Shown here piece by piece: positions 15,457 to 50,300 of a stretch of 64,000 nt of DNA (position 1 is its first letter; every line of letters begins with the position of its first letter). Below the pieces are notes generated by a model. That model saw only the letters and a list, made by a program, of their open reading frames with translations. It was not told the origin of the DNA and searched no databases. Origin of the DNA: Gigantopelta aegis (lineage: Eukaryota; Mollusca; Gastropoda; Neomphalida; Peltospiridae); assembly GCF_016097555.1 (NCBI RefSeq), contig NC_054706.1, forward strand, positions 78,859,353 through 78,923,352. The letters are read 5' to 3'. The position numbers were made by a program, and so were the translations under genes.

Positions 15457-16009
15457 ATGTCAACATTAAGGTTGCCTGCAAGAAGCAGTCTAAAGCTTAT
15501 TGGTCTTTGTCGAAAAGCTTCTGAAATGAAACAAACAGTAAAACAGTTTCATATATCCAGTTCACAGAATATTATATGTGATCAAAAATATCTGTGCCCT
15601 CACAACACTGAGACACTGACAGTACGGCAGTTTCATATTTCTGTGTCAAAGAGTAAACATGATTTAAAAACCCTCGATACTCAGAATACTCTGACAATAC
15701 GGTCATCTGAGCTGTTTGATGAAATTGTCAAGATGAGAGCAGCAGATATGATTGCGTTTCAGAAGGCTATCAAGATGTACATATCTAAAGAAAGTTTGTA
15801 CAGGAGAGGTCATGTGGAGTTCATATACGCTGCCTTGTCGCGCATGAAAGAGTTTGGTTGTCATCGAAATGTGGAAATGTACAAAAAAATCCTGGAGGTG
15901 TTTCCAGAAAAGAGGATGATACCGAAAGGTCCCTGGCAGGTGGAGATGATGCATTTCCCCCGACAACAACAGTGTGCAATAGATCTCATGGAACAGATGG
16001 AAGATAATG
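15457..16009 (+). CDS. ECSIT: ECSIT coding exon 1
   Basis: Opens after an acceptor at 15445-15446 (ACTTTCAG) with 5'UTR 15447-15456. It encodes the presequence and the first conserved domain and ends ...MEQMEDN plus one base, followed by donor GTAATT at 16010. Reading past this donor meets a stop at 16021. Confidence 0.95.
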
Positions 16010-19000
16010 GTAATTATCTCTAGATGTACAGTAGATCTCATGGAACAGATGGAAGATAATGGTAATTATCTCTAGATGTACAATAGATCTCATGGAACAG
16101 ATGGAAGACTGGTAATTATCTCTAGATGTACAGTAGATCTCCTGGAATAGATGGAAGACAATGGTAATTATCTCTAGATGTACAATAGATCTCATGGAAC
16201 AGATGGGAGACAATGGTAATTATCTCTAGATGTACAGTAAATCTCCTGGAACAGATGGAATGAATGAATGTTTAACGACACCCCAGCACAAAAAATACAT
16301 CGGCTATTGGGTGTCAAACTATGGTAATGCAAATAAATAAAATAAATCAACATCAATATAAAAATTCAAGACTTAAACAAAAACAGTGTAAAGAACTGTT
16401 TAAAAACACAAATATCACAGAATTTTACGGATACTGAATTTTACTCAAAACTTCAATTTTGTGCTGTATTGGCCATTCTCAAAGAGAATGTTGCACCACG
16501 GTGAGGTTACAGCACACGCAGGGGGAACAGATGGAAGACAATGGTAATTATCTCTAGATGTACAGTAGATCTCATGGAACAGATGGAAGACAATGGTAAT
16601 TATATCTAAATGTACAATAGATCTCATGGAACAGATGGAAGACAATGGTAATTATCTCTAGATGTACAGTAGATCTCATGGAACAGCTGGAAGACAATGG
16701 TAATTATATCTCGATGTACAGTAGATCTCATGGAACAAATGTAAGACAGTGGTAATTATCTCTAGATGTACAGTAGATCTCATGGAACAGATGGAAGACT
16801 ATGGTAATTATCTCTAGATGTACAGTAGATCTCCTGGAACAGATGGAAGACAATGGTAATTATCTCTAGATGTACAGTAGATCTCCTGGAACAGATGGAA
16901 GACAATGGTAATTATATCTCGATGTACAGTAGATCTCCTGGAACAGATGGAAGACAGTGGTAATTATCTCTAGACGTACGGTAGATCTCCTGGAACAGAT
17001 GGAAGACAATGGTAATTATCTCTAGATGTACAATAGATCTCCTGGAACAGATGGAAGACAATGGTAATTATCTCTAGACGTACAGTAGATCTCCTGGAAC
17101 AGATGGAAGACAATGGTAATTATCTCTAGATGTACAATAGATCTCATGGAACAGATGGAAGACTGGTAATTATCTCTAGATGTACAGTAGATCTCCTGGA
17201 ACAGATGGAAGACAATGGTAATTATCTCTAGATGTACAATAGATCTCATGGAACAGATGGGAGACAATGGAAAATATCTCTAGATGTACAGTAGATCTCC
17301 TGGAACAGATGGAAGACAATGGTAATTATCTCTAGATGTACAATAGATCTCATGGAACAGATGGGAGACAATGGAAAATATCTCTAGATGTACAGTAAAT
17401 CTCCTGGAACAGATGGAATGAATGAATGAATGTTTAACGACACCCCAGCACGAAAAATACATCGGCTATTGGGTGTCAAACTATGGTAATGCAAATAAAT
17501 AAAATAAATCAACGTCAATATAAAAATTCAAGACTTAAACAAAAACAGTGTAAAGAACTGTGCAAAAACACAAATATCACAGAATTTTACGGATACTGAA
17601 TTTTACTCAAAACTTCAATTTTGTGCTGTATTGGCCATTCTCAAAGAGAATGTTACACCCCTGCACCACGGTGAGGTTACAGCACACACGCAGGGGGAAC
17701 AGATGGAAGACAATGGTAATTATCTCTAGATGTACAGTAGATCTCATGGAACAGATGGAAGACAATGGTAATTATATCTAAATGTACAATAGATCTCATG
17801 GAACAGATGGAAGACAATGGTAATTATCTCTAGATGTACAGTAGATCTCATGGAACAGCTGGAAGACTATGGTAATTATATCTCGATGTACAGTAGATCT
17901 CATGGAACAAATGTAAGACAGTGGTAATTATCTCTAGATGTACAGTAGATCTCATGGAACAGATGGAAGACTATGGTAATTATCTCTAGATGTACAGTAG
18001 ATCTCCTGGAACAGATGGAAGACAATGGTAATTATCTCTAGATGTACAGTAGATCTCCTGGAACAGATGGAAGACAATGGTAATTATCTCTAGATGTACA
18101 GTAGATCTCCTGGAACAGATGGAAGACAATGGTAATTATATCTCGATGTACAGTGTCACACTCTGTCCAAACTGGCATCTCTGTAATCTGTATACAATCC
18201 ATCCTGTATTTCGTCAGTCCCCACTTGAATTCAGTTTAGACGGAATCCACTGTATATATACTTTAAATGTCATAGTACTATTCAGCATATGCAGATATAT
18301 ATGTACATACATCTGTAACCAGCCAACTGCTTTTTTTCACTTTAAAAAGCCTCAAACATGATATTCTAGCATCGGGAGAACACGAATCGTGGCAATGTTT
18401 TAGATTACACTCAGAATATGTAATTATGATTTCTGTAATAATCTGTTCATGTAGGTGTGATTCCGGACCATGATTTTGGTACAATTCTGAGAATCATCTT
18501 TGGACCTGATGCCCATGCTTTCCGAAAGTACCGGCGGATGATGTACTGGATGCCAAAGTTCAAGAATGCCAACCCGTACCCTGTTCCTTGGGAATTACCA
18601 GACGATTCAATAATGTTAGCCATGCTAGCTTTAAAACGGATGGCAGTTGACCGTGAGAACCAGATAAAGGTCTGGAAAGTAGGTGAAATCCTTTATGAGC
18701 AAGTGCTGATCAAAACCTGCCAGGGCTGTACAGTACTTGGTGGGGGATGTGGCATTTGCTGGCAGACACTGTATTACTGTGCCCCGAGTCTTGTTTAGTT
18801 ATTTTAAGACAAGTACAGCCCTGAAATTGTGAAAGTAGGTCATCATTTTAAATAACAGACCCTACTTTTTAAACATTACGGCATATTTTTCACTATTATA
18901 GTCATTATTGATAATTGTAATCAGACATGACTTCAACAATTGGTTTTTTTCTTAAACTGGTAGTTTTTGTTTGAAAATAAAATAAATACAATAATATTAT

Positions 19001-21505
19001 ATGTGCACTAACCCATGTACAAAATATATAAGTGCAATACACTAGTACGCTAGAAAAATATTGTAATACACATTGTTCAAAATGTATATTGCGGTATACC
19101 AGTTATTAGTGGTGTATCAATACATCGAACTATTGATGTTACGATATTCAGTGCCTCGATAGCAATTCATCGATAGTTGTTTCGATAGTATGCATAGTGA
19201 AATATGGTCTGACCAATGCATGATTTCACTACCGAGTGACATTATTATAAATAACTTGAGTACAAACACACACACACTCACACACACACACCACATACGT
19301 CACACACACACATTTTAGAATACTGAGGTAACTAGTTTTGCAAAATATTTGTTCATATCACTGTTATCAAGTGATTTAAGAATTCACAATTCTATTGCAA
19401 TGGTACACTAACTATTGCAATACTATTACAATAGTATTTTAATTATCGCAATACTATTGTAATAGTAAAACTGACCGCAGTAGTTAACCCTACCAGTTAT
19501 ACTGTGCATCTCTACTATAAATATTGGTTACTCTTTGAAGCAAGTTTTGAAATAATGATGTGGTAGACACTGAACCGTGAGCTTAATGTGTAGCTTAGTT
19601 GGTAGAGCTCTCGCTTGAGGTGTTTCATTCATAGGACCAAAACCCGCGTGGACCCATTCTCTGATTTGATTTGTTTCCTGTTCCAACGAGTGCTCTACAA
19701 CTGGTATGTCAACATCATGTTATGTGCTGTTATGTCTGTGTGAAAGTGCATATAAACGATCCCTTGCTGCGAATGGAAAACATTTTGATGTCCAATAGCC
19801 GATGATTAATAAATCAATGTGCTCTAGCGGTGTCATTGAAAACAAAACACATTAAATTTTTAATGTGTGCCAACTGTGTTAGCCAGCAAATAACTAATTT
19901 AATGTGTGCCAACTGTGTTAGCCAGCAAATAACTAATTTAATGTGTTCCAACTGTGTTAGCCAGCAAATAACTAATTTAATGTGTTCCAACTGTGTTAGC
20001 CAGCAAATAACTAATTTAATGTGTGCCAAGTTGTCGACAACTAAACATTCCTTTTCTTTTCCTCTTTGACTAGACCATGGAAGTGGAGACGGATCCAGTG
20101 GAAGTCACGTTCATAGCATCAGCACAGAGCCCCACCCAGAAGTCCCTGCTGAAACAGCACCCCGTGAAAACCCCCCTGTTTGTGGAGGGAGGTTACAACG
20201 TGTGGCTGAGAGATAAATACTTGACGTACTTCGTACTGCGCGCTGACCCCATGCCTTCCAAACACGTTCCCGTCAAAGACGATGATGAAGGTAAGTAAAT
20301 GAAGAGTTTTTGCCTATAAAATGTGTTGAGTGGGTCGTTAAATAAAACATTTCCTTCCTTCCTTTGTTTTTGTCTGTAGAGTCCGGTGCAGGATGTAGCT
20401 CGGTGGCAGAGTACTCTGCGGAGGTGCGGTGGGCTGCAGGATCATTCCCCCCAGACTTATTTTATTTTACCCCTAAAATACCGGAATTATTTCTCCTCTG
20501 TAACTCATGTTACAGATATTAAGATCTAAAAGCTAATCAATGCTAACTGATAGTTCATCCCAGCCTTCTACAAAAATGTTTTGGTTTGACGTAGGAAGAA
20601 AAATAAAAGTGTTTTGGAAATAACAAAAAATACTATATTTGTGTGCAATTTAGAAAACATTTGGCTCAGAAATATCTAACTTGTAGTAAATTCCATAGTA
20701 TAAAAAAAAGGTGTGGGAAGGACTATAGCAGCCTATTACTGGTTGTAAATTTATTTGTAACTCTGCTTTGTCACTGTTTGCATTTCTTAAACTTGTTATC
20801 TCCCTTTAACATAGAGGTCTCACAATGTTGTTGATGAAGCCTATATCCAGACTTTGAAAAAGGTTTTATAAGTATAAAGGCTGAGACCTGGTTAGGTCAA
20901 ATGGTTGCCAGACTTTAGTCTGTCCCACGGGGAATGCATTTTTTCATTCTATTGAATCTACTACAAGTTATTTATTTCTGAGCAGATTGTTTTTTAAAGT
21001 GCAAACATAAAATAATATTTTTTTGTTACTTCCAAAACACTTTCTTTTCTTCTTACGTCAAAGCAAACAGAAATTATTTACAAAACACATTTTGTAGGAT
21101 TGGACTATAGTTTTTACAGCCAAAGTTAAATGTAGGTCCCTGGTTTTACCAGTATTTTTTATTGTTTTGCCATTTTGTTGGTGTTTTTGTTGTTTTACCA
21201 GTGTTTTTGTTGTTTAGCAGGTGTTTTTCTTGTTTTCAGATCTGTTTAACTGGACTCTGTTTGAGAGCGAGGAGTCGACGGACATCGTCCCACGACCGAG
21301 TGTCCACGAGCAGGACGATGGCACGGTGTTAGCGATGTGCATTACCGGCACCGCCTCCAAGGATTCGCTCGTCACCTGGGTGCGGTACCTCCAGACCGAG
21401 AACCCCACCCTCGAACACACGCCCATTGTCTTCTCTCTCAGGTCCCCAGAATCACAAGTACTACTTCTGGAGAAAGAGAAGCCGAAAGGAGTCACCATCG
21501 GGTGA
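15457..21505 (+). CDS. ECSIT: ECSIT, mitochondrial complex I assembly and Toll-pathway adaptor
   Basis: Four coding exons join in phase: 15457-16009, 18455-18678, 20074-20290 and 21240-21505 (1260 nt, 419 codons plus TGA), against 431 residues in human ECSIT. ECSIT acts in the mitochondrial complex I assembly (MCIA) complex with NDUFAF1 and ACAD9, and as a TRAF6-binding adaptor in Toll signalling (family knowledge). The N-terminus (MSTLRLPARSSLKLIGLCRK) is basic and free of acidic residues, as for a mitochondrial presequence. Family blocks in order: RRGHVEFIYAALSRM, FPRQQQCAIDLMEQME, FKNANPYPVPWELPDD, TPLFVEGGYNVWLRDKY, VLAMCITGT and TENPTLEHTPIVFSLRS. An acceptor ends at 15446, eleven bases of 5'UTR precede the ATG, so at least one non-coding exon lies upstream. 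Intron 1 is filled by repeats derived from the exon 1 edge. Confidence 0.96.
16257..16525 (-). mobile_element. SINE-like insert in the array, copy 1
   Basis: Begins GAATGAATGTTTAACGACAC, continues CGGCTATTGGGTGTCAAAC and AAATAAATAAAATAAATCAA, and ends near TACAGCACACGCAGGGG. Its left end resembles the 3' end of the other SINEs in the window but the rest differs. Confidence 0.65.
17408..17698 (-). mobile_element. SINE-like insert in the array, copy 2
   Basis: Nearly identical to copy 1 about 1.17 kb to the left, with the same flanking repeat-unit variants, so it arose by duplication of the array block rather than by a second insertion. Confidence 0.75.
18455..18678 (+). CDS. ECSIT: ECSIT coding exon 2
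   Basis: Acceptor TTCATGTAG at 18454. It completes the split glycine codon and reads GVIPDHDFGTILRIIFG, the counterpart of human GVMPNKETEFLLIQIFG, through LAMLALKRM to VWK. Donor GTAGGT at 18679. Confidence 0.95.
18690..19100. other. ECSIT intron 2, left part
   Basis: AT-rich intron sequence with no repeat or exon signal seen. Confidence 0.5.
19111..19515 (-). mobile_element. hAT-like non-autonomous element, copy 2
   Basis: Reverse-orientation, shorter copy of the element at 7780-8545. It starts TAGTGGTGTATCAATACATC on this strand and ends near ACTGTGCATCTCTA, whose inverse TAGAGATGCACAGT is an imperfect match to the left end. It contains a (CA)n stretch at 19265-19312. Lies in ECSIT intron 2. 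Confidence 0.55.
19585..19845 (+). mobile_element. tRNA-headed SINE in ECSIT intron 2
   Basis: A-box-like TAGCTTAGTTGGTAGAGCTC, then the shared core CATATAAACGATCCCTTGCT and the 3' block GATTAATAAATCAATGTGCT, CTAGCGGTGTCATTGAAAAC. Confidence 0.8.
19853..20032. repeat. 39-bp minisatellite, about 4.5 copies
   Basis: Units TAATTTAATGTGTGCCAACT plus GTGTTAGCCAGCAAATAAC. It lies in ECSIT intron 2 and stops about 40 bp before the exon 3 acceptor. The unit contains no exon sequence. Confidence 0.9.
20074..20290 (+). CDS. ECSIT: ECSIT coding exon 3
   Basis: Acceptor CTCTTTGACTAG at 20073, phase 0. Reads TMEVETDPVEVTF, QSPTQKSLLKQHP, TPLFVEGGYNVWLRDKY and VLRADPMPSKHVP, matching the human region around VEGPFSLWLRNKCVYYHILR. 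Donor GTAAGT at 20291. Confidence 0.95.
20315..20455 (+). mobile_element. SINE fragments in ECSIT intron 3
   Basis: A 3' end (TGGGTCGTTAAATAAAACAT with TTCC repeats) followed by a head fragment (GCAGGATGTAGCTCGGTGGC). The rest of intron 3 to 21239 shows no feature. Confidence 0.5.
21240..21505 (+). CDS. ECSIT: ECSIT coding exon 4 (last)
   Basis: Acceptor TTCTTGTTTTCAG at 21239. Reads DLFNWTLFESEES, DGTVLAMCITGTASKDSL and NPTLEHTPIVFSLRSPES, ending GVTIG before TGA (21503-21505). The human counterpart continues longer in a low-complexity tail. Confidence 0.95.
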
Positions 21506-21707
21506 TCAGTTCAAGACTTGTAGAAATATATTATTATATTGTGTGGCAGGAAACCCACCCTTGAAGACATGCCCATCGTCTTCTCTCTCAGGTCCCCAGA
21601 ATCACAAATACTACAATGTACTTCTGGAGAAAGAGAAGCCGAAAGGAGTCACCATCGGGTGATCAGTTCAAGACTTGTAGAAATATATTATTATATTGTG
21701 TGGCAGG
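21401..21707 (+). repeat. Tandem duplication of the ECSIT 3' end
   Basis: The last ~100 coding bases, stop codon and ~45 bases of 3'UTR (21401-21550) are followed by a second copy (21551-21707). Copy 2 differs by a 7-base insertion after CACAAATACTAC and by some point changes. It lies wholly in the 3'UTR. Confidence 0.95.
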
Positions 21708-21729
21708 ATGTTGTATTTCTGTGGTGTAT

Positions 21730-21735
21730 AATAAA
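21730..21735 (+). promoter_or_regulatory. ECSIT polyadenylation signal
   Basis: AATAAA 225 bases after the stop codon, just past the duplicated 3' segment. Confidence 0.6.
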
Positions 21736-21764
21736 ACAAAAATGTATGTAAATATCAATTAAAG

Positions 21765-21860
21765 TTTACAAGTTTTGTTTAACAACACCACTGGAGCACA
21801 TCGATTAATTAATCATCGGCTATTGGATGTCAAACTTTTGGTAATTCTGACTCTTAGTCG
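21765..21860 (-). mobile_element. SINE 3' fragment
   Basis: TTTAACAACACCACTGGAGC, ATCATCGGCTATTGGATGTC and a TTTGGTAATTCTGAC block; head missing. Confidence 0.7.
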
Positions 21861-21861
21861 T

Positions 21862-21995
21862 AGATTTTAATATAGTGTGTAAAAAGCTGAAAGTATGATT
21901 TTAATATAGTGTGTAAAAAGCTGAAAGTATGATTTTAATATAGTGTGTAAAAAGCTGAAAGTATGATTTTAATATAGTGTGTAAAAAGCTAAAAC
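21862..21995. repeat. 34-bp minisatellite, 4 copies
   Basis: Units GATTTTAATATAGTGTGTAA plus AAAGCTGAAAGTAT, almost identical. Confidence 0.9.
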
Positions 21996-21999
21996 TTAT

Positions 22000-22540
22000 T
22001 TAAGCTTTTCTGATTTCAGATCTATTAACGTTTTTATTCGCAGTCAGTATGGATGCACAGGTGCAGATTCAAGGTGGGTGCAACCCTCTCAGAACTACGA
22101 AGTGGAGATGTTAACATTGAAAGTTATATTTATACTGTAATTCTGTTGGTGCCATTTTAAAGTTGCTCCTCTTCCTAGGATGTAGGATATGAATCATCAT
22201 CATCATAGCAGCAAGATCTGTGGCCCATTTAGGGCAAGATTTAGACTGGTTTTCGCAACTGATGTTAGATAATGTTACATGATAGAAGTAGTACCAGTCT
22301 AATTGCTCAGGAGGGCTCCCTTCTGAATACGCGACAATGTAATTCGACATACATTTGCTAATTTGAATTGGGCAGTCACAAGAAAGAAGCAATTGGTATC
22401 AAATGTGTTACTAGGCGTATCGTGTTGACACCACCTACTTGACAGGACTACCTTTGATAAAATACATACGCAACAGGTCTACTGAAGAAAAGCAGTCCCA
22501 CCATTTCTTGGACTCATTGAATGTATTAAATGTCTCAAGT
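22000..22540. other. Intergenic, no gene supported
   Basis: A TTTCAGATCTATTAACG at 22014 resembles a splice acceptor, but the following frame closes at once. No clear exon. Confidence 0.4.
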
Positions 22541-22549
22541 TAATATTTA

Positions 22550-22665
22550 CATAAATTATCTAAAACTGTCTTTTGGTTAAACATGTTGCTTTGCGAATGG
22601 TTTGTACACTCATGAAAAATGTGGACAATTGTGATTGACCCTTTAAGACTATTTTTAAAAGAACT
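22550..22665 (-). pseudogene. Diverged copy of the exon-like segment at 24.1 kb
   Basis: Read on the reverse strand, it matches the segment at 24030-24145 block by block (TTTTAAAAATAGTCTTAA, TGTCCACATTTTTCATGAGT, GTACAAACCATTCGCAAAGC) but has lost the open frame. Confidence 0.4.
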
Positions 22666-24140: not shown

Positions 24141-24149
24141 TGAATTTCT

Positions 24150-24900: not shown

Positions 24901-24904
24901 CTTA

Positions 24905-25915: not shown

Positions 25916-26671
25916 CAACAAATGCCAGCTGTAGCAATGAACAATACCATCCTCTTCTCGAGTGTTGGCACTGTGATCCATGTAACGTCTCATAGCTGCT
26001 GTTGGCTAATATTGGTTAATCTGTTTTAACCTTGTATTTTCTGTGTTTTTAACACATCATTTCAGATCTTGCTGTAGAATGTTTAAGTTTCATCAAAAAC
26101 TGATGTAGTGACACTGATGTTATGTCATTAAAGGACAATACTATAACTGAATTATGGGTAGAACATTCTCACCAAGTATAGGCTAACATTTTGCAGAGGG
26201 GTAAAATATTGAAACGGAACCTACAACACTAGTTGCTATGGCTAAAGGTGATAAAACATTCTCACACATCCATTTGAGAGGTCAGTGTGTGACCTTCATA
26301 ATACAATATGACAATATCTTACATATGGCGACAGATTTAAAGATATTGCACCATGGTATGATGTCAATTCCTAACTATCCACTGAAATTAACACACATTG
26401 CCATTGACAATGCACACAGTAATTGTGCAAGCAGAGGTGTCATAAATACATTAACTTAAATAGCCATTTTAATGTTAAAAACTTTTAAACTATTCTTGAG
26501 GATAATGAAAAAAAAAAACTCCCATTGTCTGAATAAAGAACCTTAAATTAATAATGATCCTATTTGGCTACTCTGCACATATTGTACAATACAGCAGATT
26601 AGGGTCATGTTGTATAGCAGCAACAGGCAATTGTCCTGTGTCATTTTCTGCTAGTTTTTCATGTTAATTAT

Positions 26672-28113
26672 ATGGACTACAGCCGGACTGATTATCGAGA
26701 ACCACCCACGTTAAATAGATGGACTACAGGTGGACTGATTATCGAGAACCACCCACGTTAAATAGATGGACTACAGGTGGACTGATTATCGAGAACCACC
26801 CACGTTATATAGATGGGCTACAGGTGGACTGATTATCGAGAACCACCCACGTTATATAGATGGGCTACAGGTGGACTGATTATCGAGAACCACCCACGTT
26901 ATATAGATGGGCTACAGGTGGACTGATTATCGAGAACCACCCACGTTAAATAGATGGACTACAGCCGGACTGATTATCGAGAACCACCCACGTTATATAG
27001 ATGGACTACAGGTGGACTGATTATCGAGAACCACCCACGTTATATAGATGGGCTACAGGTGGACTGATTATCGAGAACCACCCACGTTATATAGATGGGC
27101 TACAGCCAGACTGATTATCGAGAACCACCCACATTAAATAGATGGACTACAGGTGGACTGATTATCGAGAACCACCCACGTTAAATAGATGGACTACAGG
27201 TGGACTGATTATCGAGAACCACCCACGTTAAATAGATGGACTACAGGTGGACTGATTATGGACTACAGGTGGACTGATTATTGAGAACCACCCACGTTAA
27301 ATAGATGGACTACAGCCGGACTGATTATCGAGAACCACCCACGTTATATAGATGGACTACAGGTGGACTGATTATCGAGAACCACCCACGTTATATAGAT
27401 GGGCTACAGGTGGACTGATTATCGAGAACCACCCACGTTATATAGATGGGCTACAGCCAGACTGATTATCGAGAACCACCCACATTAAATAGATGGACTA
27501 CAGGTGGACTGATTATCGAGAACCACCCACGTTAAATAGATGGACTACAGGTGGACTGATTATCGAGAACCACCCACGTTAAATAGATGGACTACAGGTG
27601 GACTGATTATCGAGAACCACCCACGTTAAATAGATGGACTACAGCCGGACTGATTATCGAGAACCACCCACATTAAATAGATGGACTACAGCCGGACTGA
27701 TTATCGAGAACCACCCACGTTAAATAGATGGACTACAGGTGGACTGATTATCGAGAACCACCCACGTTAAATAGATGGACTACAGGTGGACTGATTATCG
27801 AGAACCACCCACGTTAAATAGATGGATTACAGGTGGACTGATTATGGACTACAGGTGGACTGATTATTGAGAACCACCCACGTTAAATAGATGGACTACA
27901 GCTGGACTGATTATTGAGAACCACCCACGTTAAATAGATGGACTACAGCCGGACTGATTATCGAGAACCACCCATGTTAAATAGATGGACTACAGCCGGA
28001 CAGATTATCGAGAACCACCCACGTTAAATAGATGGACTACAGCCGGACTGATTATCGAGAACCACCCACGTTAAATAGATGGACTACAACCGGACTGATT
28101 ATCGAGAACCAGT
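26672..28113. repeat. 47-bp minisatellite, about 30 copies
   Basis: Unit GGACTACAGGTGGACTGATT ATCGAGAACCACCCACGTTA AATAGAT with variants (CAGCCGGAC, TATATAGATGGGC). A higher-order block of about 348 bp is visible: the same variant order occurs from about 26964 and again from about 27312. It lies between the 3' ends of ECSIT and FNIP. Confidence 0.95.
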
Positions 28114-28164
28114 GGTCCAGGCTCAGAGATGTGATACAGCTCCTGGTTTGTTGTCTGTGTTAAT

Positions 28165-28305
28165 GAGTAGTCGGCATGAATTCGGCATTCCTGAGTAGTC
28201 AGCATGAATTCGGCATTCCTGAGCAGTCAGCATGGATACCGCATTCCTGAGCAGTCAGCATGGATACCGCATTCCTGAGCAGTCAGCATGGATACCGCAT
28301 TCCGT
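28165..28305. repeat. 28-bp minisatellite, about 5 copies
   Basis: Units GAGCAGTCAGCATGGATACC plus GCATTCCT, the first copies diverged (GAATTCGGCATTCC). Confidence 0.9.
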
Positions 28306-28422
28306 AGGTTTATCACACTGACGAGAGGTTCAAGTGAAGAATGTACTATAAGATTTAAATTCATCACAACATGGTTGACCTCTTCTAGCTAACTGTGAAG
28401 CCAGGGTTTTCCCCATCTCAAT

Positions 28423-31400: not shown

Positions 31401-34400
31401 TAGCATTCATGACAAGCGTAGCAAATGATATTAGAGCGTAGCATGGTCGAATGTCATAAACAGCAGCAAAAGAAAACACCAAATAACTACGTCATAGTAA
31501 CTGCAAAAGACTTGGTTGTGCTATTTTTAGGACAGATAACGCTCGTCTTCGGTTAAGATATACGGACATACCCGAAATGTAATGAATGTTGTCAAATAAG
31601 TCAGGCGATTTGAACAGGATTATGAATGACTAGAATTTTGTTTTTAAAACAGCATCGAAATGCAATAAACCCAAAATTAACTGCTGTGCGATGATGTGAT
31701 CAGTACTAAATTTGAATGCTTATATTCTTATTTCAAGTTAAAATTAAAATTACTCTATTTCTAACTGGCATGCGTTCACATGCAATTTTCTATATACACG
31801 GCATGCAAGAGTAACACGACTAAAGAACAGTTCTTTGAAGGTTTTATAGTATGCGACACTGGGGCCGGCCTACAGTAAAACTACACGTCTGTTATAGAAT
31901 ACATCTTACTGTAACTCTTTTACAATGGTGCTTAATCCGCAAATTATACTTTGATATGTTGGAATAACAAAAAAAGAAAAAGCCACAGAAACGAGGAATT
32001 CAGTTTTTAGTTACTGTATTCGAAGATTACGTCCAATTTTTAGTATAAATGCCAGAAATCGCCCACTTTTCAACTGTACTTTATAGACCTATAATTTGTG
32101 ATAAACATGAAACGTATACGCTTGCCAAATAAAACATAATTCGTTAGTAGAAACTTTGGCCAAATACACTAATCATCCAGTTATATTTATCTGTTGCAAA
32201 AATTATTACTGGTTTTCATTAACGTATCATACTGGATTTTTTTTTAAACTGAGCATAGCAATTTGGGCATGAGCGTAGCAAATGTCGACTAAGCATAGCA
32301 AACTACGCCCAAAGCGTAGCAGTTGGCAGCTCTGATTATACCACTCCAAATCTAGGTCTGATTAAAATGGATTGTATTCTGCTTTTAACAAGAAACTGAC
32401 AATAATTTAAGTGTAGATTCGGTTAAATAGGGTAACAATCAATTATAAACCAGTGTCATTCAGTTAGAATACTCCATGGATAATAAATGCAAAGTTTCTG
32501 AAAACACTCTTCTCTTCGTTTACCTAAGATGATATTTGATATTCGTATTTATCTTCTCTTCATTTACCTGAGATGACATTTGAAGATCACTGAGCAGTTT
32601 TGGCCACAAGTTGACATCGGACGTCCCATGAAGGACAAAATTGGACATGTAGTGGTCTGAAAACTCCGCTAGTAGAGACCGCCCGAAGTTCCGGTCGTAC
32701 GACCTCACACTAGAATTCCATTCAGCACCATCACTGGTCATCCTGTTAAACAAACACCAATTCAGTAAACAGCCACGTCTTGTGAAAATAGTCAAATGTT
32801 CAAGTTAAAGTTTGTTTTTGTTTAACAAAACCACTAAAGCACATTGATTAATTAATCATCATCTATTGGATGTCAAACATTTGGTAATTCTGACATGTAG
32901 TCATCAGAGGAAACCCGCTACATTTTTTCTAATGCAGCAAGGGATCTTTTATATACACTTTCCCACAGACAGGAAAGCACATACAACAGCCTTTGTCCAG
33001 TTGTGGTGCACTGGTTGGAACGAGAAAAATCCCAATCAGTTGAATGAATCCACCAAGAAGGTTCAATCCTGCAACGCAAGCACTTCAAGCGAGCATTCAA
33101 CTGATTGAGCTAAATCCTGCCCCAGTGAAATAATAAGAACATACAGGTGAGTTACAAACCATCATTACACAAGATTTTTTGTCTGCCTCATTTATAATTT
33201 TTTATATTATTTATAAAACCTATAGTGTTAATTTTACATATCTGTGAAATGAAATCTATTCTATTCAGAATGCAAGATTATTAACAGTAAAAGATATTAC
33301 CCTGAATCAAATCAAACAGATGACTGTGGCTAAAACTTGTTTATTTTCTTTAGTTTAACACCACCACTAGAAAACTTTGATTAATTAATCATCAGCTATT
33401 GGATGTCACACATTTGGTAATTTTTGACACGTAGTCTTCCAAGGATACCTGCTACATTTTACCATTGGCAAGAATGCAGGGGTTGAAATTAAAAATTTTT
33501 TTACCACTATCTCAAAGGAATAGTGAATTTCAAAATACACTATTCCGTCTAAAAATGTACTATACCTTCAATTATTAATGTACCACAAGTTTTCCCGACT
33601 GTGCTACCTCGCCATGTACAACATTGTGTAATGAACAATTGTTTATATACCAGTTTATGCATTACTGCGTACTAGCTGGAATTACAAACTAACTCACTCC
33701 AAACATCAGTCTCGATCAACAGACGTTTATTTTGTACCGGTAAGTGCATGAGAAAGGTCTTAGTAGCGCGAGGATTTGTTCTGCAAAAAGATGTAACTGA
33801 AGAAAAAGTGTAAGTGGAATAGTCGCAGGCGATTTGCAGTATTCCGTGCTTTATTTTCACCTTCATGACGGAATATTGGAAAAATTGTTTTACTATTCCG
33901 TTTCGAAATTTACTATTTGCGGAATAGTATAAAATTCGACCCCTGGAACGGATCTTTCATATACACTTTTCTACAGAGAGACCAGTACAACCCATGGCCT
34001 TTGATATACCAGTTGTGAGGCAATGGTTAAACTGTTGACATGCAACACTTTCAATCAACATATACACCACAGATAATAATACTACAACCTCTCGATCTAA
34101 AAGTAAATGTTTGAAATTGGAGGTGTGTGTGTATTGATAGTTTCAACTAGCATACTTAATTACCCTAGTTCCATATAGGAATGGTCAGCACACATTTAGC
34201 GGCACCCAGTGCAAACTGATACAGTCATAGTACCTTGATATAAAATTACTACAATTTACTGGACCAATGAAACACTACTATGGGTATTTGATGCAATATT
34301 TAAAGTTAGGTGCACTTTCATCTTTTACCCAGCGAGATGCTACAGGTATTTGCTACTACACTGCTATGAAAAAAATGAAGCACTCACTCTGGCATGATGA

Positions 34401-37400: not shown

Positions 37401-40400
37401 ATTAGATACGCGAGAGCAAAGTGTGAACAAAATATTCGTTCTCACAATTTTCAGAGACCTAAACCCATTTCTGAGTTATTCAAAAACAGATTCAGATAAC
37501 ATATATATATAATTTTCACATAATCCATCATGACCATATAAATTTTGTCTTAATTTTAATACAAGAACGAAAAATGAGACTTGCATGAGTGATGCATGAA
37601 TCAAACAATCGTTCTCGCAATTTTCAGAGGACTGTAACAATCTGCTCCAATCCTTATCCAAAACATTGAATCAAAACATTTATAAATCAATAATCTTCAA
37701 AATATAAAATTAATATATTCAAATCCCTGTTTTCTTGTAAAGAATAAGCAAATTTGTTTCAATATTTAAAAAAAAACATATTTACCTGCAAGAACATTGA
37801 ATCAAAACGTTTATGCAGTCAATCAATATTCATTAATGTATCAATATATTCAAGTCCCCGTTTGCTACTTTTAAGAGTAAGGAAATTTGTCTTAATATTT
37901 TGAAAAATTAGTCCACCTTTTAGCTTTTATAATTATTTCCTACCTGCCTGTGATTATCCCAATTTATATCAGATATGCAGCCACATAAAGTAAAACATCA
38001 CAATAAAAAAAAAAAAACAACATGGAAGACGCCTGCCATATCGTTTACTCACAATTTAGTGCTTTTGTTGTCAAACTTGTCAGCGAGCACCCTGAATTCG
38101 TTGATAAACTTTTCACAGAAGATGTACCGGTGATTGCTGTATGACATCATGTTGAGCCAGACCGGCTCAGCGAGTCGCGGAGCCGTGTACAGATCATAGA
38201 CATCGTTTCGGAACAATTCCAATGCCTATGATAACAATAAATAAACTTAATTAAATATATATGGGAAAACAAATATATATAAGTATCATTCCTGAACACG
38301 CATATCTTATTTATGTGTTTGAAAATCAGTCACCAGAGATGAAAGTGGGTTACGAAAGGAAAGTAGGTAAAGTATTTTGAACGACTGATAATAAAACAAG
38401 CATTCTAAGAATACTGCTAAAGCAATTTAAATGTTCCCTGACCGGCCCAACAAATATTCTAACTCCTAAATTCAAGGGCCATAACTCTGTCAAAATGGGT
38501 AAATCGTCATGGAAGTTAAACTTGATATGTACGTAACAGTACATGATAAAGCTATACACAGAATGTCAGCTCAACATCTCAAGGCATTGTGAAAAAAACA
38601 TCTGGAATACCATGTGGGACAGATTGACGGACAGACAGACAGACAGACAGGATGGAGGTCAAACCTTTAGTCCCCTCCCTTTGGACTAGTAGGGGACTAA
38701 AAAGGGGGTTGGAGGGTGGGGGATCGACTTACAAAGAAAATCTACCTGTCAGTTTCTGAGACCTTTCTAGAAACCCAATAATTGCTTGAAAATGTCTGAG
38801 CTATTGGCAACTCAGTTTGAGGCAGCACAGTACTAATGAAAGCTAATCCATCTGTATCTGTCTGATGTAAAACAGTTACACGGGTTACGTACCTCCATGA
38901 CCATAGGAATAAATACTGGCAGCATAGTACTATTGAAAGCTAATCCATCTGTATCTGTCTGATGTAAAACAGCTAGGGTTACGTACCTCCATGACCATAG
39001 GAATAAATACTGGCAGCATAGTACTAATGAAAGCTAATCCATCTGTATCTGTCTGATGTAAAACAGCCAAGGGTTACGTACCTCCATGACTATAGGAATA
39101 AATACTGGCAGCATAGTACTAATGAAAGCTAATCCATCTGTATCTGTCTGATGTAAAACAGCAAGGGTTACGTACCTCCATGACCATAGGAATAAATACT
39201 GGCAGCATAGTACTAATGAAAGCTAATCCATCTGTATCTGTCTGATGTAAAACAGCCAAGGGTTACGTACCTCCATGACCATAGGAATAAATACTGGCAG
39301 CATAGTACTAATGAAAGCTAATCCATCTGTATCTGTCTGATGTAAAACATCTAAGGGTTACGTACCTCCATGACCATAGGAATAAATACTGGCAGCATAG
39401 TACTAATGAAAGCTAATCCATCTGTATCTGTTTGATGTAAAACAGCTAAGGGTTACGTACCTCCATTACTATAGGAATAAATACTGGCAGCATAGTACTA
39501 ATGAAAGCTAATCCATATGTATCTGTTTGATGTAAAACAGCTACGGGTTACGTACCTCCATGACCATAGGAATAAAGCGAGGCCGGTTGAAGAACCCTCG
39601 CTCTACAACTGCTCGTAGCTTCTCCACGTGACCCTCCAGTAGCGGGATGTGAGAGAAAAAGAAGTTCTGGAAAAACCTAAAACACAAGAATGTCAACAAT
39701 TAACATCAAATAACAGCCACAATTAAAACTGAATGTTTAGCTTTCAGAAATGAGTTCTGGAACAACCTAAAACGTAAGGATATCAACAATTAACATCAAA
39801 CAACAGCCTCAATTAAAACTGAATGTTTAGCTTTCAGAAAGAAGTTCTGCAACATCTAAAACACAATGATATCAACAATTAAAATCAAATAAAAGAAACG
39901 ACTAAACCTCTGAATAATTAGCTTTCAGAAAGAAGTTCTGGAAAAACCTAAAACACAACGATATCAACAACTAAACCAACCTGACAAAACCTGTAACTAA
40001 AAGAAAGTAAATTGCTACTGTGTAACTCTGACAAGCTACAATGACAAATGAGATAAATAGAAAAGGGTCTCCAATTTCAACTCATCTAAGACTCTCATGA
40101 ACTGTATGCATTAATACCAGCATCTAGTTATAAGGCCAAATATATTACACTTTATGCATGGGGGAGTTTGGTAGATTAGTATCATATGAAGTGTGAGAGT
40201 TTTACAGTCAGATCTGATCCGCAAATTGTGAAGGCATTTAAATGTAAAAAACATTTTTAAAGCTGCCACAAAACATTTCTGGGTTACAGTACCATGACAT
40301 GTTGAGTTATCGATTAATTGTTCACATCCCTAGTGTTTACTATGTAATAAATGTACTAAGTAAAGGGATACATAGAGATTATTATACAAGTGTCAGGATT

Positions 40401-41273: not shown

Positions 41274-41350
<77 letters not shown>

Positions 41351-44300
41351 GAGCGAGAGAGAGAGCGAGCGAGTCCCTCAAAACCAGATATTTTTTACGG
41401 TTCCTTTTTAATTAACTATACAGAACATAACCTCTCTAAACTGGATACCTCTTAATACTGGACTTTTATTTGGTCCAGTGGGTGTCTGATTTAAAGGGAT
41501 TTCATTGAAAATAATTTAAAAATAAATATAATATAGTTGATGCACCAAACTGTACAGTTAAACTTTGTGTTGTTTAACGACACCACTAGAGTACATTGAT
41601 TTATTAATTGGCTATTGGATGTCAAACATTCGATCATTCTGACACATAGTCTTAGAGAGGAAACCCACTACATTTTTTCATTAGTAGCAAGGGATCTTTT
41701 ATATGCCAATACACATACCACGGTCTTTGATATACCAGACATGGTACATATGCTGGAAAGAGAAATGGCCCAATGCCCACCAAAGGGAATCAATCTCAGA
41801 CTGACCGCGCATCAGACAAGCACTTTACCAATGGGCTACGTCCTGTCCTGTTTAATGATACCACTAGAGCACATTGATTAATTGGATCTCAAACATTTGG
41901 TAATTCTGACTCGTAGTCATCAGAGGAAACCTGCTACATTTTTCCATTAGCAGCAAGGGGTCTTTTAATTTAAATTCACTTTTATATGTTGTGTACAGTA
42001 TAAAGACCATGAAACCATGTCATGTGACCAACCTCTTGACTAAGAAGCTGCTCCTGAGAGCTCCACTTGCGACTCTGTAGCGATGTCGTCTGCGTCCTCA
42101 TCCACCGCCGGTGCAGGCTGTTGTAGCTGCTCACACTGTTGCCACTTGGAGACGGGAAGTGGGTCTGGAAACTGCCACTAGACGTAACTATGGAAACAGA
42201 AAACATTTTCTTGAAAACATGTCCAAGTCTGCGATAAGATGATAAATGGAGCCATGAGCTACAATTCTAGGGGGTTTCAGGGTTTGCTGTTGTTATTGTT
42301 GTTGTTATTGTTGTTGTTTTTGTTGTTGTTTGGTTTTTGCTGTTTGGGTGGTTGGGGATTTTGGTATATTCAATACTAGTGATCTCTAATGTTAATAAGC
42401 CAAGTTGTAGATAAAAACCCTTACATGAATTGAGACCACTTTCATCATCCGTGGATTCACTGTAGCTGCTAGATGGGGTTGGGACAGCAACTGGTATGCT
42501 CTTTCCTGGAAACACAAATTACTTTTATTACTATGCAGTTAGCAAATAATAAACAGTAAACATTTATATCTGATAGCCAGGTCAAACAACTGAATTTAGA
42601 ACTTCTATGCTAAAACACCCAACAAGACAAACTTATTTAACCTGAACTTATAATTTACACCGGAAAGTATAACCCAAACTAAACTTTTGGCCCACTAAAT
42701 GTTTTATTTTTGAAAACTTAGATAAGTTTTGTTCGACCACCACAAGATTTTTTTAGAATTTTTTTTTAGATTTAGCTGTTTTAACATGAATATATTAAAT
42801 AAATGCTTAATGACAACTATTGCAAAAATATCAAAACTTTAACAAATATAATTATATCATAAATTAGGTCCAGTAATTGTATCAATGATTATATGTCCCT
42901 GTAATTGGGTACAAAATGGCTCATATTGAACTGACCATATCCGGTGTCCCAGTTCTCCTGAGTTTCCACAGATAGGTGTTTAGGAATGGAGAAATCCAGC
43001 GGCTGACTGGAAACACTGGACGAATCGGAGTCCAAATCTCTGAAACACAACGTTAAAGTTTCAAATTAACAATCCATGTTCACACTAAAACTAATAAAAG
43101 GCTAAAATTCAGGATAAATGAATATTTAACCTGTTTACTGGTCCATTAATTTCACGTACTGCCAATTCCCAGTCCAATCACTTGTATAATTAGTGCATTA
43201 AACACAGCTGTAAGCATAGACCTATCTATAAGAAAGTGCTGCTAAATCATAAGAAACACCTATTTCTTAACAGGTTAATTCTCTAACATATCAACCCCTG
43301 CAATTGCCTTTGGCAATCGGCAATGCTGTGGAGATTGCTGTGGTGTTTTTAATTGTCTATGGGACTTTTTTTTCATGGCATGATTTTTGACGTAAGACAT
43401 TTTCTTAATTGCAAGTGTTGCCTTTTGCACCAGATGTCAAAATTACTGAGTTTTAAACCTACATGTTTTCATTCTGGCTATAACAAGATAAACGGATAAC
43501 TACTAACATCAAAACTTATACATGTTCTCGTTTTGGCTATTACAAGATAAACTGATAACTACTGATATCAAAACTTACACACGTTCTCGTTTTAGCTATT
43601 ACAAAATAAACTGATAACTACTGATATCAAAACTTACACACGTTCTCGTTTTGGCTATTACAAAATAAACTGATAACTACTGATATCAAAACTTTCACAC
43701 GTTTTCGTTTTGGCTATTACAAGATAAACTGATAACTACTGATATCAAAACTCACACGTTTTCGTTTTGGCTATAACTACTAACATCAAAACTTACACAC
43801 GTTTTCGTTTTGGCTATTACAAGATAAACTGATAACTACTGACATCAAAACTTACACATGTTTTCATTTTGGCTATTACAAGATAAACTGATAACTACTA
43901 ACATCAAAACTTACACACGTTTTCATTTTGGCTATTACAAGATAAACTGATAACTACTGACATCAAAACTTACACATGTTTTCATTTTGGCTATTACAAG
44001 ATAAACTGATAACTACTAACATCAAAACTTACACACGTTTTCATTTTGGCTATTACAAGATAAACTGATAACTACTGACATCAAAACTTACACACGTTTT
44101 CGTTTTGGCTATTACAAGATAAACTGATAACTACTCATATCAAAACTCACACGTTTTCGTTTTGGCTATTACAAGATAAACTGATAACTACTCATATCAA
44201 AACTCACACGTTTTCGTTTTGGCTATTACAAGATAAACTGATAACTACTCATATCAAAACTCACACGTTTTCGTTTTGGCTATTACAAGATAAACTGATA

Positions 44301-47300
44301 ACTACTCATATCAAAACTCACACACGTTCTCGTTTTGGCTATAACAAAATAAACTGACAACTACTCATATCAAAACTCACACACGTTCTCGTTTACACTA
44401 CTACAAAATAAACTGATAACTACTGATACCAAAACTCACACACATTTTCGTTTTGGCTACTACAAAATAAACGGATAACTACTAATATCAAAACTCACAC
44501 AAGTTCTCGTTTTGGCTATTATAAAATAAACTGATAACTACTGATATCAAAACTCACACACGTTCTTGTTTAAGCTACTACAAAATAAACTGATAACTAC
44601 TAATATCAAAACTCACACAAGTTCTTGTTTTGGCTACTACAAGAAAAAACAAAAACTACCAATATCAAAACTCACAAAGGTTCTCGTTTGGGCTTTTCTG
44701 GGTAGAAAATCTTACTCAGCATAATCTGTGGTGGCGATCTGAAATTAAATACATGAAAGTTATTTTTAAAATTCATGTACAGATATCATCATCTTAACGT
44801 GACACAAATAATTAAGTTAGTTTCATTTAATGTAATTCTAATAAAATTATTTTTAAATTCATGTACAGATATCTTAACGTGACACAAATAGCTAATTAAG
44901 TTAGTTTCATTTAATGTAATTCTAATATAATTATTTTTAAAATTCATGTACAGATATCTTAACATGAGACAAATAGCTAATTAAGTTAGTTTCATTTAAT
45001 GTAATTCTAATAAAATTATTTTTAAAATTCATGTACAGATATCATCATCTTAACGTGACACAAATAGCTAATTAAGTTAGTTTCATTTAATGTAATTCTA
45101 ATAAAATTATTTTTAAAATTCATGTACAGATATCATCATCTTAACGTGACACAAATAGCTAATTAAGTTAGTTTCATTTAATGTAATTCTAATAAAGTTA
45201 TTTTTAAAATTCATGTACAGATATCTTAACGTGACACAAATAGCTAATTAAGTTAGTTTCATTTAATGTAATTCTAATAAAATTATTTTTAAAATTCATG
45301 TACAGATATCATCATCTTAACGTGACACAAATAGCTAATTAAGTTAGTTTCATTTAATGTAATTCTAATAAAATTATTTTTAAAATTCATGTACAGATAT
45401 CATCATCTTAACGTGAGACAAATAGCTAATTAAGTTAGTTTCATTTAATGTAATTCTAATAAAATGTTGGAATACAAATGTCCATAAAAATAATGTACTA
45501 CAATAAATTTCTGATTCATAAATAGCTTCGTAGAAATACACAAACATACCAACACTTGAAAAGTTATTACTTGCAGAATACACCAAGATTAAATTTATCT
45601 CTTTTTAAGTTATTGTAAGAAATAAAAAATTCAGATAGCAACTTGTTTTTCATTACAAAAACCCTCATCCATTTGTAACTGCAAAATACTGTAGATCCTG
45701 AAATTAATGTGATCATAATATTAATGCGAAAAACGCGACTTAGTGTTATTTGCATTAATAATATTATGCATTTATTTCTATGTTTTGTCTATGTGTCCCA
45801 TGTTATTAAAACCCAACCCCCCCAAAATTAATATATTTATAAAACAGAACTGGAGCACAATTCATCATAGATTAGACAGACTAACTGTCCAATAGTCCAG
45901 CAAACTGCCAGCCACATGTGACGATTGAAGGGTCTGTGGCATGGCCACTCTGTCAAAAGCCGACACATTCCATCATGCGTGAATGGGTTTTAGCATGCCA
46001 ATATTGCGGTCAATCTTTTCTTTGTCTTTACTGTTCAAGTTCCCTGCAACTGTGTTGGCATAGTTGTAATGGTACATGTATGCTAATGTTTAGCCAGATT
46101 TATGTAACTATACATGTTACGTAAATGATTGCTGCAAAAATATGCTTTGAGCTGATTTCACCAAAAATACTAGGGACTGAACAGGTTAACTGATGTGTTG
46201 TACACAGACATGTTAGTAAGTTGATCTTACTGAAAACAGCTGCAACTTGGATTTAACCAAAAAGTACACAAACGTGTGGTGTTAGGAAAATTAATATTTC
46301 AAAGAGAGGCCACTCGCATTAATTTCATGTCGCAGTCTGCCCACCATCACTCGCATTAATTAAGGGACGTGTTACTTTCAGGATCTACAGTATATAAATA
46401 AGCCTAGTTATAGAACAATAACAAACAATGACCAGAGTGTTTACCCAGATTTTGGTAATCAGTTTACCTGATGAAGTGAACTTTAAGAGTTAACCCTTTG
46501 TATGCCATGCCGACAGAGCCAAGCATCATTTCTTCTAGCATCTGGTTATCACTGCTCAGTTTCTTAAACTACAAAGACAAACATTACGACTTAAAAATGT
46601 CTATTTCTCAGAATTAGTAACAGAGCTCACATACGCCAATCTTAAGACTACCTACAGCAATTTTAAACAGTATGTTTTACAACAAACAAACATAAAATTA
46701 AAACAAAAAATTACCCCCCCCCCCCCCCCCCCTTCAAATGACAGCAATACCTTTTATCCAATGGCAAAAAGCTGCCATCACTAACACCCTTAATCTACGG
46801 GAATTGATATCAGAGCTATGGCAACTGACATCGGTGTCGCCGATAAGTTTGAGCCCTGTCGTAATCTCAGTATTATTATACTTACAGAGTGCATCCACTT
46901 TTCTGATATAACGGTACCTTGTACAACGCACATACACAATTATTAAATTGAATAACACATATATACACTGTAAAAATTATATGATAAATTATTTACCAGT
47001 AGCTTGGTTAAAAACTGATTTCATCTAATCAAAAGAAGAGCTAAGTACTTGTAAATGAATATTAAACCTGGTATTTGGGACATGTCTTCTATGAGGATGA
47101 AGAACCAGGCTAAATAAAAATATGTATGTAAAAGTAAATGAATATTAAACCTGGTATTTGGGACATGTCTTCTATGAGGATGAAGAACCAGGCTAAATAA
47201 AAATATGTATGTAAAAGTAAATGAATATTAAACCTGGTATTTGGGACATGTCTTCTGTGATGATGAGCTGCTTCCGTCCAGATTGGATTTACCAAGCGGT

Positions 47301-50300
47301 GGCCGCAAGTTGGTCGCACTTTTTGCTCCACCAGGCTTTTGGGGACTCTACACACACAACAAATAGACTCATTGTAATTACTCTTCATTCAATTTTCAAA
47401 TATATGCTTAAAGCACTATAATTTGTGAAAAGAGAAAACATTAATAATTGTAGATAAAGACAATCAACGTTGGGGTGAGATGTAGCTCAGTGGGCCCATT
47501 GGGCTATTTATTATTCAAGCCAGTGCACCAAAGGCTGTGGTACATGATGATACAATTTAACTATCATATGATTACAAAATGCATTTCATACCAGATATTA
47601 TTGCTCACAAACACAAATGTCCTAAAAGGAAGCACAAACTATATAAAAAAAATTAATAATAATAAATGAAAATTAAAAACACAATGGTAAAACACTACAT
47701 TTGTCTACGATTAAAATCTGTGATTGATAACCAAATTCAAATCCAAATGTTTTTCCATGCCCACATCCAGTAGGTTCAGGCATGTCCACCATGGGTCCGG
47801 TGTGACCGGTGGCCTGATCCAGGCATGTCCACCCTGGGTCCGGTGTGACCGGTGGCCTGATTCAGGCATGTCCACCCTGGGCCCAATGTGACCGGTGGCC
47901 TGATCCAGGCATGTCCACCCTGGGTCCGGTGTGACCGGTGGCCTGATTCAGGCATGTCCACCCTGGGTCCGGTGTGACCGGTGGCCTGATTCAGGCATGT
48001 CCACCCTGGGTCCGGTGGCCTGATTCAGGCATGTCCACCCTGGGTCCGGTGTGACCGGTGGCCTGATTCAGGCATGTCCACTCTGGGTCCGGTGTGACCG
48101 GTGGCCTGATTCAGGCATGTCCACCATGGGTCTGGTGTGACCGGTGGCCTGATCCAGGCATGTCCACCATGGGTCCGGTGTGACCGGTGGCCTGATCCAG
48201 GCATGTCCACCATGGGTCCGGTGTGACCGGTGGCCTGATCCAGGGTGACCGGTGGCCTGATCCAGGCATGTTCACCCTGGGTCCGGTGTGACCGGTGGCC
48301 TGATCCAGGCATGTCCACCCTGGGTCCGGTGTGACCGGTGGCCTAATCCAGGCATGTCCACCCTGGGTCCGGTGTGACCGGTGGCCTGATCCAGGCATGT
48401 CCACCATGGGTCTGGTGTGACCGGTGGCCTGATCCAGGGTGACCGGTGGCCTGATCCAGGCATGTTCACCCTGGGTCCGGTGTGACCTGTGGCCTGATCC
48501 AGGCATGTCCACCCTGGGTCCGGTGTGACCGGTGGCCTAATCCAGGCATGTCCACCCTGGGTCCGGTGTGACCGGTGGCCTGATCCAGGCATGTCCACCA
48601 TGGGTCCGGTGTGACCGGTGGCCTGATCCAGGGTGACCGGTGGCCTGATCCAGGCATGTTCACCCTGGGTCCGGTGTGACCGGTGGCCTGATCCAGGCAT
48701 GTTCACCCTGGGTCCGGTGTGACCGGTGGCCTGATCCAGGCATGTCCACCCTGGGTCCGGTGTGACCGGTGGCCTAATCCAGGCATGTCCACCCTGGGTC
48801 CGGTGGCCTGATTCAGGCATGTCCACCCTGGGTCCGGTGTGACCGGTGGCCTGATCCAGGCATGTCCACCATGGGTCCGGTGTGACCGGTGGCCTGATCC
48901 AGGCATGTCCACCCTGGGTCCGGTGTGACCGGTGGCCTGATCCAGGCATGTCCACCCTGGGTCCGGTGTGACCGGTGGCCTGATCCAGGCATGTCCACCC
49001 TGGGTCCGGTGTGACCGGTGGCCTGATCCAGGGCAGATTGATAACCATATCTGTCTTTTTAACTACATCACTTACCCGTTCAAAAGAGTCCTCATCCACC
49101 TTCCTAATGGCATCCGAGTCAAACATGGGGGTGCGTCCTTTGTCATGGTCAGCGTATATCACCAAACGGATTTTATTACGATCAAGTTTGGGACGTGATC
49201 TGAAAATAAACAAAAAGGAAAAATTATTTTAAAAAGAAAGCAAATATAAAAGAAAAAGAGTAAGTTTTCCACAAAAATCCATGTGGATTCTCACAGAAAC
49301 AGTCTGCGAGCACCATCTAAATCCAAACTTAACAGTATTTGTACAGAACTAATGCTATGAAAAGTGTCTGTATATAATCCCTATGGTCTGCATTTACTGG
49401 AATCCCTTGTGGTGCCCAGTAACAGTGCACAGGACTCATTGGGTTCCTAGCTTTATTCACCCCAGGTATCCTATTCCACATAGTTAATACAATATGTATT
49501 GCATTTTCATGGTATTCGTTTAATTTAACTTTATTTTTGTGCTTATATCCAAGATTTAAGGTTCAAGCATGCTGCCCTGGGTACACACCAGCTCTTTGGA
49601 CTACCTGTCCAGTGGGTTATGGTGAATTGTTACATGTAGTGAGAGAGGTCGGTGCATACCTTCCCACTGAGTCATTATAAGTCATCTGGGTAAAAGCTGC
49701 AACTCCTGCAATTACCCACAACAATCGGCAATGCCGTGGAGTTTTTAATTCTCCGCAGAACTTTTTTGCCTAGGACTATAATCATGGGTTTTTTTTTCAA
49801 CAACATGTTTTTTTGCCGATGAGCTGCAACCTCTGCAATTGCTCACGGCAATCAGCAATGCCGTGGAGTTTTTAATTCTCCACTGAACTTTTTTGCCTAG
49901 GACTATAATCATGGGTTTTTTAAATGGCATGTCTTTTTTGCTGTGGACATTTTCTTATTTGCAGCGGTTGGAGCTGGTACAAGGATACCATGGTGGAAAT
50001 GAATAATTTAACAGAATTAGGACTATGGTAATAAACATACTTCCGTTCTATCACCGTAACAGATATGTAACCTGAACGGCCATCTTACGTCAAGTCCTGA
50101 ATGCAGTGAATTTTATAATAATAGTTTTTGGCATGAGTCCTTTTGTAGATGGTTTTTCTGACACTCGTCTCAAGAAAATCAATCTTTGGAGCGAGCTCCA
50201 TGGATTGATTTTCTTGAGACGAGTGTCAGAAAAACCATATACAAAAGGACGAGTGCCAGAAATATTTTCTAGCACAACCTGTCTTATAAATTTTATTATT

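Follow-up and report, generated by a model that had tools for sequence, protein, structure and literature searches.

The window, the whole 64-kb stretch of Gigantopelta aegis DNA that was analysed, carries two genes. Their names, ECSIT and FNIP, are those given from sequence alone in the initial annotation. The ECSIT model consisted of four exons on the forward strand (15447–16009, 18455–18678, 20074–20290, and 21240–21505), and the FNIP model consisted of exons 2–20 on the reverse strand, from 49199 down to 28423. Both models were stop-free. Of the 24 coding exons counted in the initial annotation, 23 were modelled; the 24th is presumably FNIP exon 1, which lies outside the models. The exons concerned and the repeats at their borders are listed in Table 1. 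A 47-bp array (26663–28111) and a 28-bp array (28164–28303) lay just past the FNIP stop codon and probably belong to the 3′ UTR or adjoin it. Large arrays were also found by TRF outside both genes, at 2987–3618 (30 bp), 9310–9591 (28 bp), and 53691–55266 (87 bp).

Table 1. Exons and tandem repeats at exon borders in the window.
Feature	Position	Strand	Basis
First coding exon of ECSIT (start codon ATG, 15457; donor follows 16009)	15447..16009	+	stop-free model
52-bp array, ~41 TRF copies, starts within ECSIT exon 1, carries the donor	15973..18154	+	TRF; 40/40 at offset 52
Repeat-like insert within the ECSIT array	16256..16520		second copy 17420–17687, 95.5% identical
Two-copy duplication (157 bp) taking in the end of the ECSIT coding region, the stop codon, and bases after it	21400..21708	+	TRF; 40/40 at offset 157
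FNIP exon 3	47234..47347	-	gene model
83-bp array, 2.6 copies, across FNIP exon 3 donor	47051..47266	-	TRF; junction test
FNIP exon 5	44676..44738	-	gene model
59-bp array, 21 copies, across FNIP exon 5 donor	43461..44694	-	TRF; 35/40
91-bp array, stops 18 bp before FNIP exon 5 acceptor, acceptor excluded	44756..45465	-	TRF
FNIP exon 10, arrays on either side	39556..39676	-	gene model
95-bp array, 8 copies, across FNIP exon 10 donor	38821..39576	-	TRF; junction test
90-bp array, 3.5 copies, across FNIP exon 10 acceptor	39658..39974	-	TRF; 36/40
FNIP exon 16	32568..32742	-	gene model
Two-copy duplication, offset 44, across FNIP exon 16 donor, weak	32508..32583	-	30/40; 29/32
43-bp array beginning 43 bp into the intron that follows FNIP exon 2, donor excluded	47777..49032	-	TRF

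The copying of exon borders was investigated with a 40-mer placed across each junction. A copy was accepted at a distance of up to 3 kb when at least 30 of 40 positions were identical, with at least 14 of 20 in each half. Duplicated donors were found at 5 of 21 sites, and these were the five listed in the initial annotation (ECSIT exon 1 and FNIP exons 3, 5, 10, and 16). The one duplicated acceptor that it had named was confirmed as well, at FNIP exon 10 only (1 of 23; 36/40). Sequence inspection showed that the final copy of this acceptor array runs on into the exon. The reported duplication of the end of the last ECSIT exon was also recovered, with 40/40 identities at offset 157 and the stop codon included; one of the two stop codons tested, that of ECSIT, was duplicated. 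The weakest junction match was that of the FNIP 16 donor, with two copies and 30/40 identities, and this pair was absent from the TRF list and was found by self-comparison. At the other donors, the TRF units were 52, 83, 59, and 95 bp; the FNIP 10 acceptor array had a 90-bp unit, and the duplication at the ECSIT stop codon one of 157 bp. The 52-, 83-, 59-, 95-, and 90-bp arrays are minisatellites, with head-to-tail copies of a unit of roughly 10–100 bp.

The insert in the ECSIT array was present twice (95.5% identical), and the units following it were 98–100% identical at an offset of 1172 bp. The array therefore first grew, then took up the insert, and later underwent a block duplication. The insert had partial matches at 36388–36448 and 21814–21845, looking like a mobile-element remnant that was duplicated along with the array.

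An independent sample was taken from the 1.149-Gb assembly. Exons were located by HMM, with 124 matches for kinesin and 80 for the myosin head, and were fetched without regard to repeats. The sample comprised 60 loci with 1.5-kb flanks, 50 loci with 0.5–0.6-kb flanks, and 34 donor windows of 360–400 bp, the last fetched only after the donor excess had been noticed. Before counting, twelve of the first 60 loci were removed because their contigs, with numbers above 600, possibly come from other organisms. Splice sites were predicted with a weight matrix built from the window and later widened with the sample. Sites scoring below 4 were dropped, which left 83 donors and 92 acceptors of 99 exons and 30 of the 34 fresh donors. 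One exon among the fresh windows (L152) was a UCH exon and gave no donor. The scope of the counts is two gene families (kinesin and myosin), predicted splice sites, and one assembly, with several array callers compared. Contigs of G000 with numbers above 600 (for example C2231, C964, C1254, and C644) gave matches to kinesin, myosin, and UCH, and several of these matches held many stops; pseudogenes, genes with short introns, or a different organism in the assembly are possible sources.

Among the called sites of the sampled kinesin and myosin exons, 9/113 donors lay in arrays (95% interval 0.037–0.146), and 1/92 acceptors did so (0.0003–0.059), the one being L043 (55/68). About one in twelve sampled 5′ splice sites heads an array of its own copies reaching into the intron, and exon starts in the sample were copied very rarely. 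With the window added, the counts were 14/134 donors and 2/115 acceptors. Fisher's test of donors against acceptors gave 0.025 for the sample alone and 0.008 with the window. Arrays were found at 5 of the 30 fresh donors, with units of 105 bp (L129), 20 bp (L131), about 55 bp (L134), 70 bp (L141), and 85 bp (L149). The L129 and L131 loci are separated by about 40 kb on a single contig and possibly belong to one gene. The donor called at L141 was probably placed about 30 bp downstream of the real one, either position being inside the array. Two further candidates were set aside. The L102 donor (30/40, offset 255) looks like a chance match; it is inside the 10/104 of the position count below and outside the 9/113. 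The L014 donor (38/47, offset 213) was counted only in the one-unit count at threshold 20 and is outside the nine. In the FNIP span (28423–49199), 4/18 donors were duplicated, compared with 9/113 sampled elsewhere, and regional clustering is possible.

The strength of the donor excess hinges on the null and the array caller. When coverage was compared by position in the window and 98 loci, 10/104 donors lay in duplicated sequence, with no excess over the 0.077–0.125 found 30–400 bp downstream. On the acceptor side, coverage was 0.10–0.12 at −100 to −150, 4/115 at −50, and 1/115 at the acceptor. In the samples alone, donors gave 2/40 with a flank rate of 0.145 and 3/43 with a flank rate of 0.058; acceptors gave 0/46 and 0/46 with the same flank rates. 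Seen this way, donors do not stand out, and acceptors are depleted. This null was first taken as refuting the initial annotation. It is biased because an array of n copies gives n units of intron positions and one exon-joined donor, and it was dropped as the sole test since multi-copy arrays inflate intron coverage.

When each array was counted once, about 2 of 113 donors were expected and 9 were seen. The expected number was 1.76 with collapsed introns, 1.35 with cross-locus-repeat-free rates, and 1.96 with GC-matched rates (P = 7e-5, 1e-5, and 2e-4, respectively); by the latter two rates, neither cross-locus repeats nor local GC explains the excess at these 113 donors. One-unit coverage was 9/104 at the donor, compared with 0.013 at 110–200 bp and 0.025 at 210–400 bp. 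At three thresholds, the one-unit count in the sample was 4–5 donor arrays with 1.36–1.50 expected and 1 acceptor array with 1.72–1.88 expected. In the window, with one caller and three thresholds, it was 4–5 donor arrays with 0.87–0.93 expected and 1 acceptor array with 0.96–1.04 expected. The first 83 donors alone gave 4 with 1.18 expected by circular shift (P = 0.028). The excess was weaker in a test free of donor calls, which gave 3/99 and 4/34 at HMM exon ends (control rate 0.019) and 2/99 at HMM exon starts (control rate 0.0126). With TRF arrays in the sample, the excess was not clear, at 3/83 donors with 1.92 expected; acceptors were at 0/92 with 2.43 expected. An interval caller (sample donors 9 with 3.44 expected; acceptors 3 with 3.95 expected) was dropped, as it counts junctions between two spaced copies. 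A local first-unit control was not used for the fresh windows, which are too short to show array starts far downstream.

In the window, 16 arrays lay in gene spans and 6 straddled junctions, a count that leans upward because the FNIP 16 pair was added by hand to the list of 16. The expected number was 1.36–2.34 with one unit per array (P = 0.0009–0.02) and 6.17 with placement of whole arrays. Because the window was chosen for its striking look, P values from it do not count as independent evidence. The initial annotation had argued that random minisatellites should rarely straddle a junction. Its expectation that junction arrays exceed the intron minisatellite density failed by position and stood for donors in the one-unit count.

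Copying of sampled donors is probably several times above chance. A non-random process behind the donor arrays, as had been proposed, is likely because the independent sample gave 9/113 with about 2 expected and the fresh windows gave 5/30. The initial interpretation was supported in part. The process is not aimed at splice sites as such because acceptors were without excess (1/92) and array edges crowd the intron side of acceptors too. With edge-distance bins set after the counts were seen, array 5′ edges between −60 and +40 of donors numbered 10 with 2.20 expected in the first 83 donors and 7 with 0.80 expected in the fresh 30; array 3′ edges at −10 to +90 upstream of the 92 acceptors numbered 8 with 2.45 expected, and one edge only lay beyond the acceptor border, further inside the exon. 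Arrays crowd both exon borders, yet cross chiefly the donor.

The array copies derive from the coding end of their own exon, both in the junction test and in the sampled arrays. The exon-joined copy was the first copy in all nine donor arrays checked (the five of the window, L041, L044, L092, and L112). Counted with this first copy, GT was kept in 27/29 copies at ECSIT 1, 3/3 at FNIP 3, 18/20 at FNIP 5, 8/8 at FNIP 10, and 2/2 at FNIP 16, and in 3/4 at L041, 9/9 at L044, 2/2 at L092, and 3/3 at L112. Downstream donor copies mostly scored like the exon-joined one, with exceptions such as FNIP 16 (9.5 vs. 3.6). The functional donors of the arrays scored 3.6–11.2, so weak and strong donors were both duplicated. 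The donor was invariant across copies in FNIP 10 and L044. In ECSIT 1, its variability was 0.024, compared with 0.030 in the exon flank and 0.036 in the intron flank, so the donor was hardly more conserved. Read-through past the donor met a stop within 1–12 nt, ahead of the next copy, in ECSIT 1 and FNIP 3, 5, and 10. In FNIP 16, the stop came about 45 nt on, beside the second copy, whose offset of 44 nt would put the reading frame out. Two sampled myosin arrays stood out. At L044 (G000:C8, myosin head exon), an 80-bp array with nine donor copies of identical strong score follows a conserved exon. At L149 (G000:C1:27053170-27053530), the GT of the exon-joined donor is replaced by AT in the downstream copies, as though decoys had been inactivated.

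Several explanations of the donor arrays were compared. Chance, in a minisatellite-rich genome with a window picked as striking, would agree with intron positions lying in duplicated sequence as often as donors, with the 6.17 straddling arrays predicted by whole-array placement, and with the TRF counts that were not clearly in excess (3 vs. 1.92). It is nevertheless quite unlikely: copy number explains the position null, the one-unit nulls gave P of about 1e-5 to 2e-4 for exons chosen blind to arrays, and the fresh windows repeated the excess. The insertion of dispersed intron-like elements at junctions, either introners or a satellite, has nothing in its favour save the repeated junction, and is extremely improbable. 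The arrays copy the coding end of their own exon, and a unit present at many unlinked loci was not found for ECSIT exon 1 (25 genome matches) or the FNIP 10 unit (8), all matches lying at the own locus in a search that skips very common words. For these two, the array units appear private to their own locus. Selection for redundancy, with extra donor copies aiding exon definition or backing up the 5′ splice site, would fit the keeping of GT in the four arrays of at least eight copies (27/29, 18/20, 8/8, and 9/9). The ECSIT 1 donor is barely more conserved than its flanks, though the FNIP 10 and L044 donors are invariant; the L149 copies have lost GT, and strong donors were duplicated as well as weak ones. 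This explanation is considered very unlikely.

The tandem duplication might be triggered by damage focused at the 5′ splice site (R-loop, stalled fork, or repaired break), an idea of the initial annotation and a tentative possibility that we regard as rather unlikely. The excess was sharpest at donors, both in one-unit coverage and in the fresh windows (5/30), and was not accounted for by local GC or cross-locus repeats. The median best-run identity was 0.93 in donor arrays (n = 9) and 0.94 in other arrays (n = 78). Donor arrays thus look no older than others, which fits more births over longer survival. However, the crowding of edges on the acceptor intron side (8 vs. 2.45) means that the effect is not confined to donors, and the exon-side ends of the matched runs in nine donor cases were scattered from 16 to 79 bp within the exon, with no common start evident. 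It is somewhat less probable still that donors are duplication hot spots of this lineage, where a donor-centred lesion seeds arrays at about 8% of introns, introns grow, and acceptor duplications are purged. If true, donor hot spots would be a genome-wide process tying transcription or splicing to minisatellite birth.

The best reading is that ordinary local tandem duplications gather at exon borders, and that copying a donor is harmless and copying an acceptor harmful. We hold this combination of a general exon-border effect and unequal splice-site tolerance with about even confidence. The arrays would be locally born minisatellites, arising from a short tandem duplication near an exon border with a unit of about 20–110 bp. 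The duplication would grow into the intron by slippage, as we infer, or by unequal exchange. Arrays appear to be several times denser beside exon borders than in intron interiors in this genome. Border arrays likely survive where intron deletions that erase arrays cannot extend past the exon; alternatively, a higher birth rate at exon edges would have the same appearance. Sheltering would predict older arrays, whereas donor arrays look no older; expansion resets identity. A duplicated donor would be tolerated, the exon-joined copy staying put and the remaining copies becoming intron, and the first donor is probably the one used in transcripts. A duplicated acceptor would set competing AGs upstream and would mostly be removed by selection. 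Since acceptors were near the one-unit expectation (1 vs. 1.7–1.9) and not clearly below it, selection at acceptors shows mainly by contrast with the crowded intron flank.

Single cases of junction-copying repeats are already known. The minisatellite of human IFI6 reportedly concerns one gene, with a short unit and several donors used, unlike the present arrays, which lie in several genes, have units of 20–110 bp, and carry donors predicted from DNA alone. Each unit carries a 5′ splice site in the window arrays, as in the IFI6 type, and L149 is the counter-case. The interferon-induced IFI6 (6-16) gene reportedly contains a minisatellite that provides multiple splice donors (Turri, Cuin and Porter 1995), and the likeness is that one minisatellite supplies several 5′ splice sites in a transcript. 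Minisatellite variation at exon–intron boundaries is shared with human segmental duplications, for which internal tandem repeats at these boundaries and 27 intron modifications after manual inspection are reported (PMC2812944); those are primate-specific paralogs, whereas conserved kinesin and myosin genes, ECSIT, and FNIP are concerned here. In potato RdRp, a tandem duplication likewise spans the intron–exon boundary, and an intron was gained through duplication across the acceptor (PMC4974935). In potato, the new intron came from the duplicated acceptor region; in the present genes it is donors that are copied, and the models need no extra intron. The C. elegans minisatellite CeRep25B also lies within introns flanking exons and is over-represented near alternative splicing regions (PMC4039745). 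It is a dispersed family near multiple splicing decisions, whereas the present arrays are built from the exon's own junction. The rate and the asymmetry were not met in the literature searched; in the titles and abstract starts of one library of open literature, no report of a genome-wide donor–acceptor asymmetry of tandem arrays was found.

If the pattern is genome-wide, roughly one intron in twelve opens with an array of donor copies. Such arrays would offer a natural test of spliceosomal choice among near-equal 5′ splice sites; they would also make introns grow and put gene annotation at risk. The asymmetry would gauge how unequally the duplication of either splice site is tolerated, and the pattern would tell whether minisatellites are sheltered at exon borders or born there.
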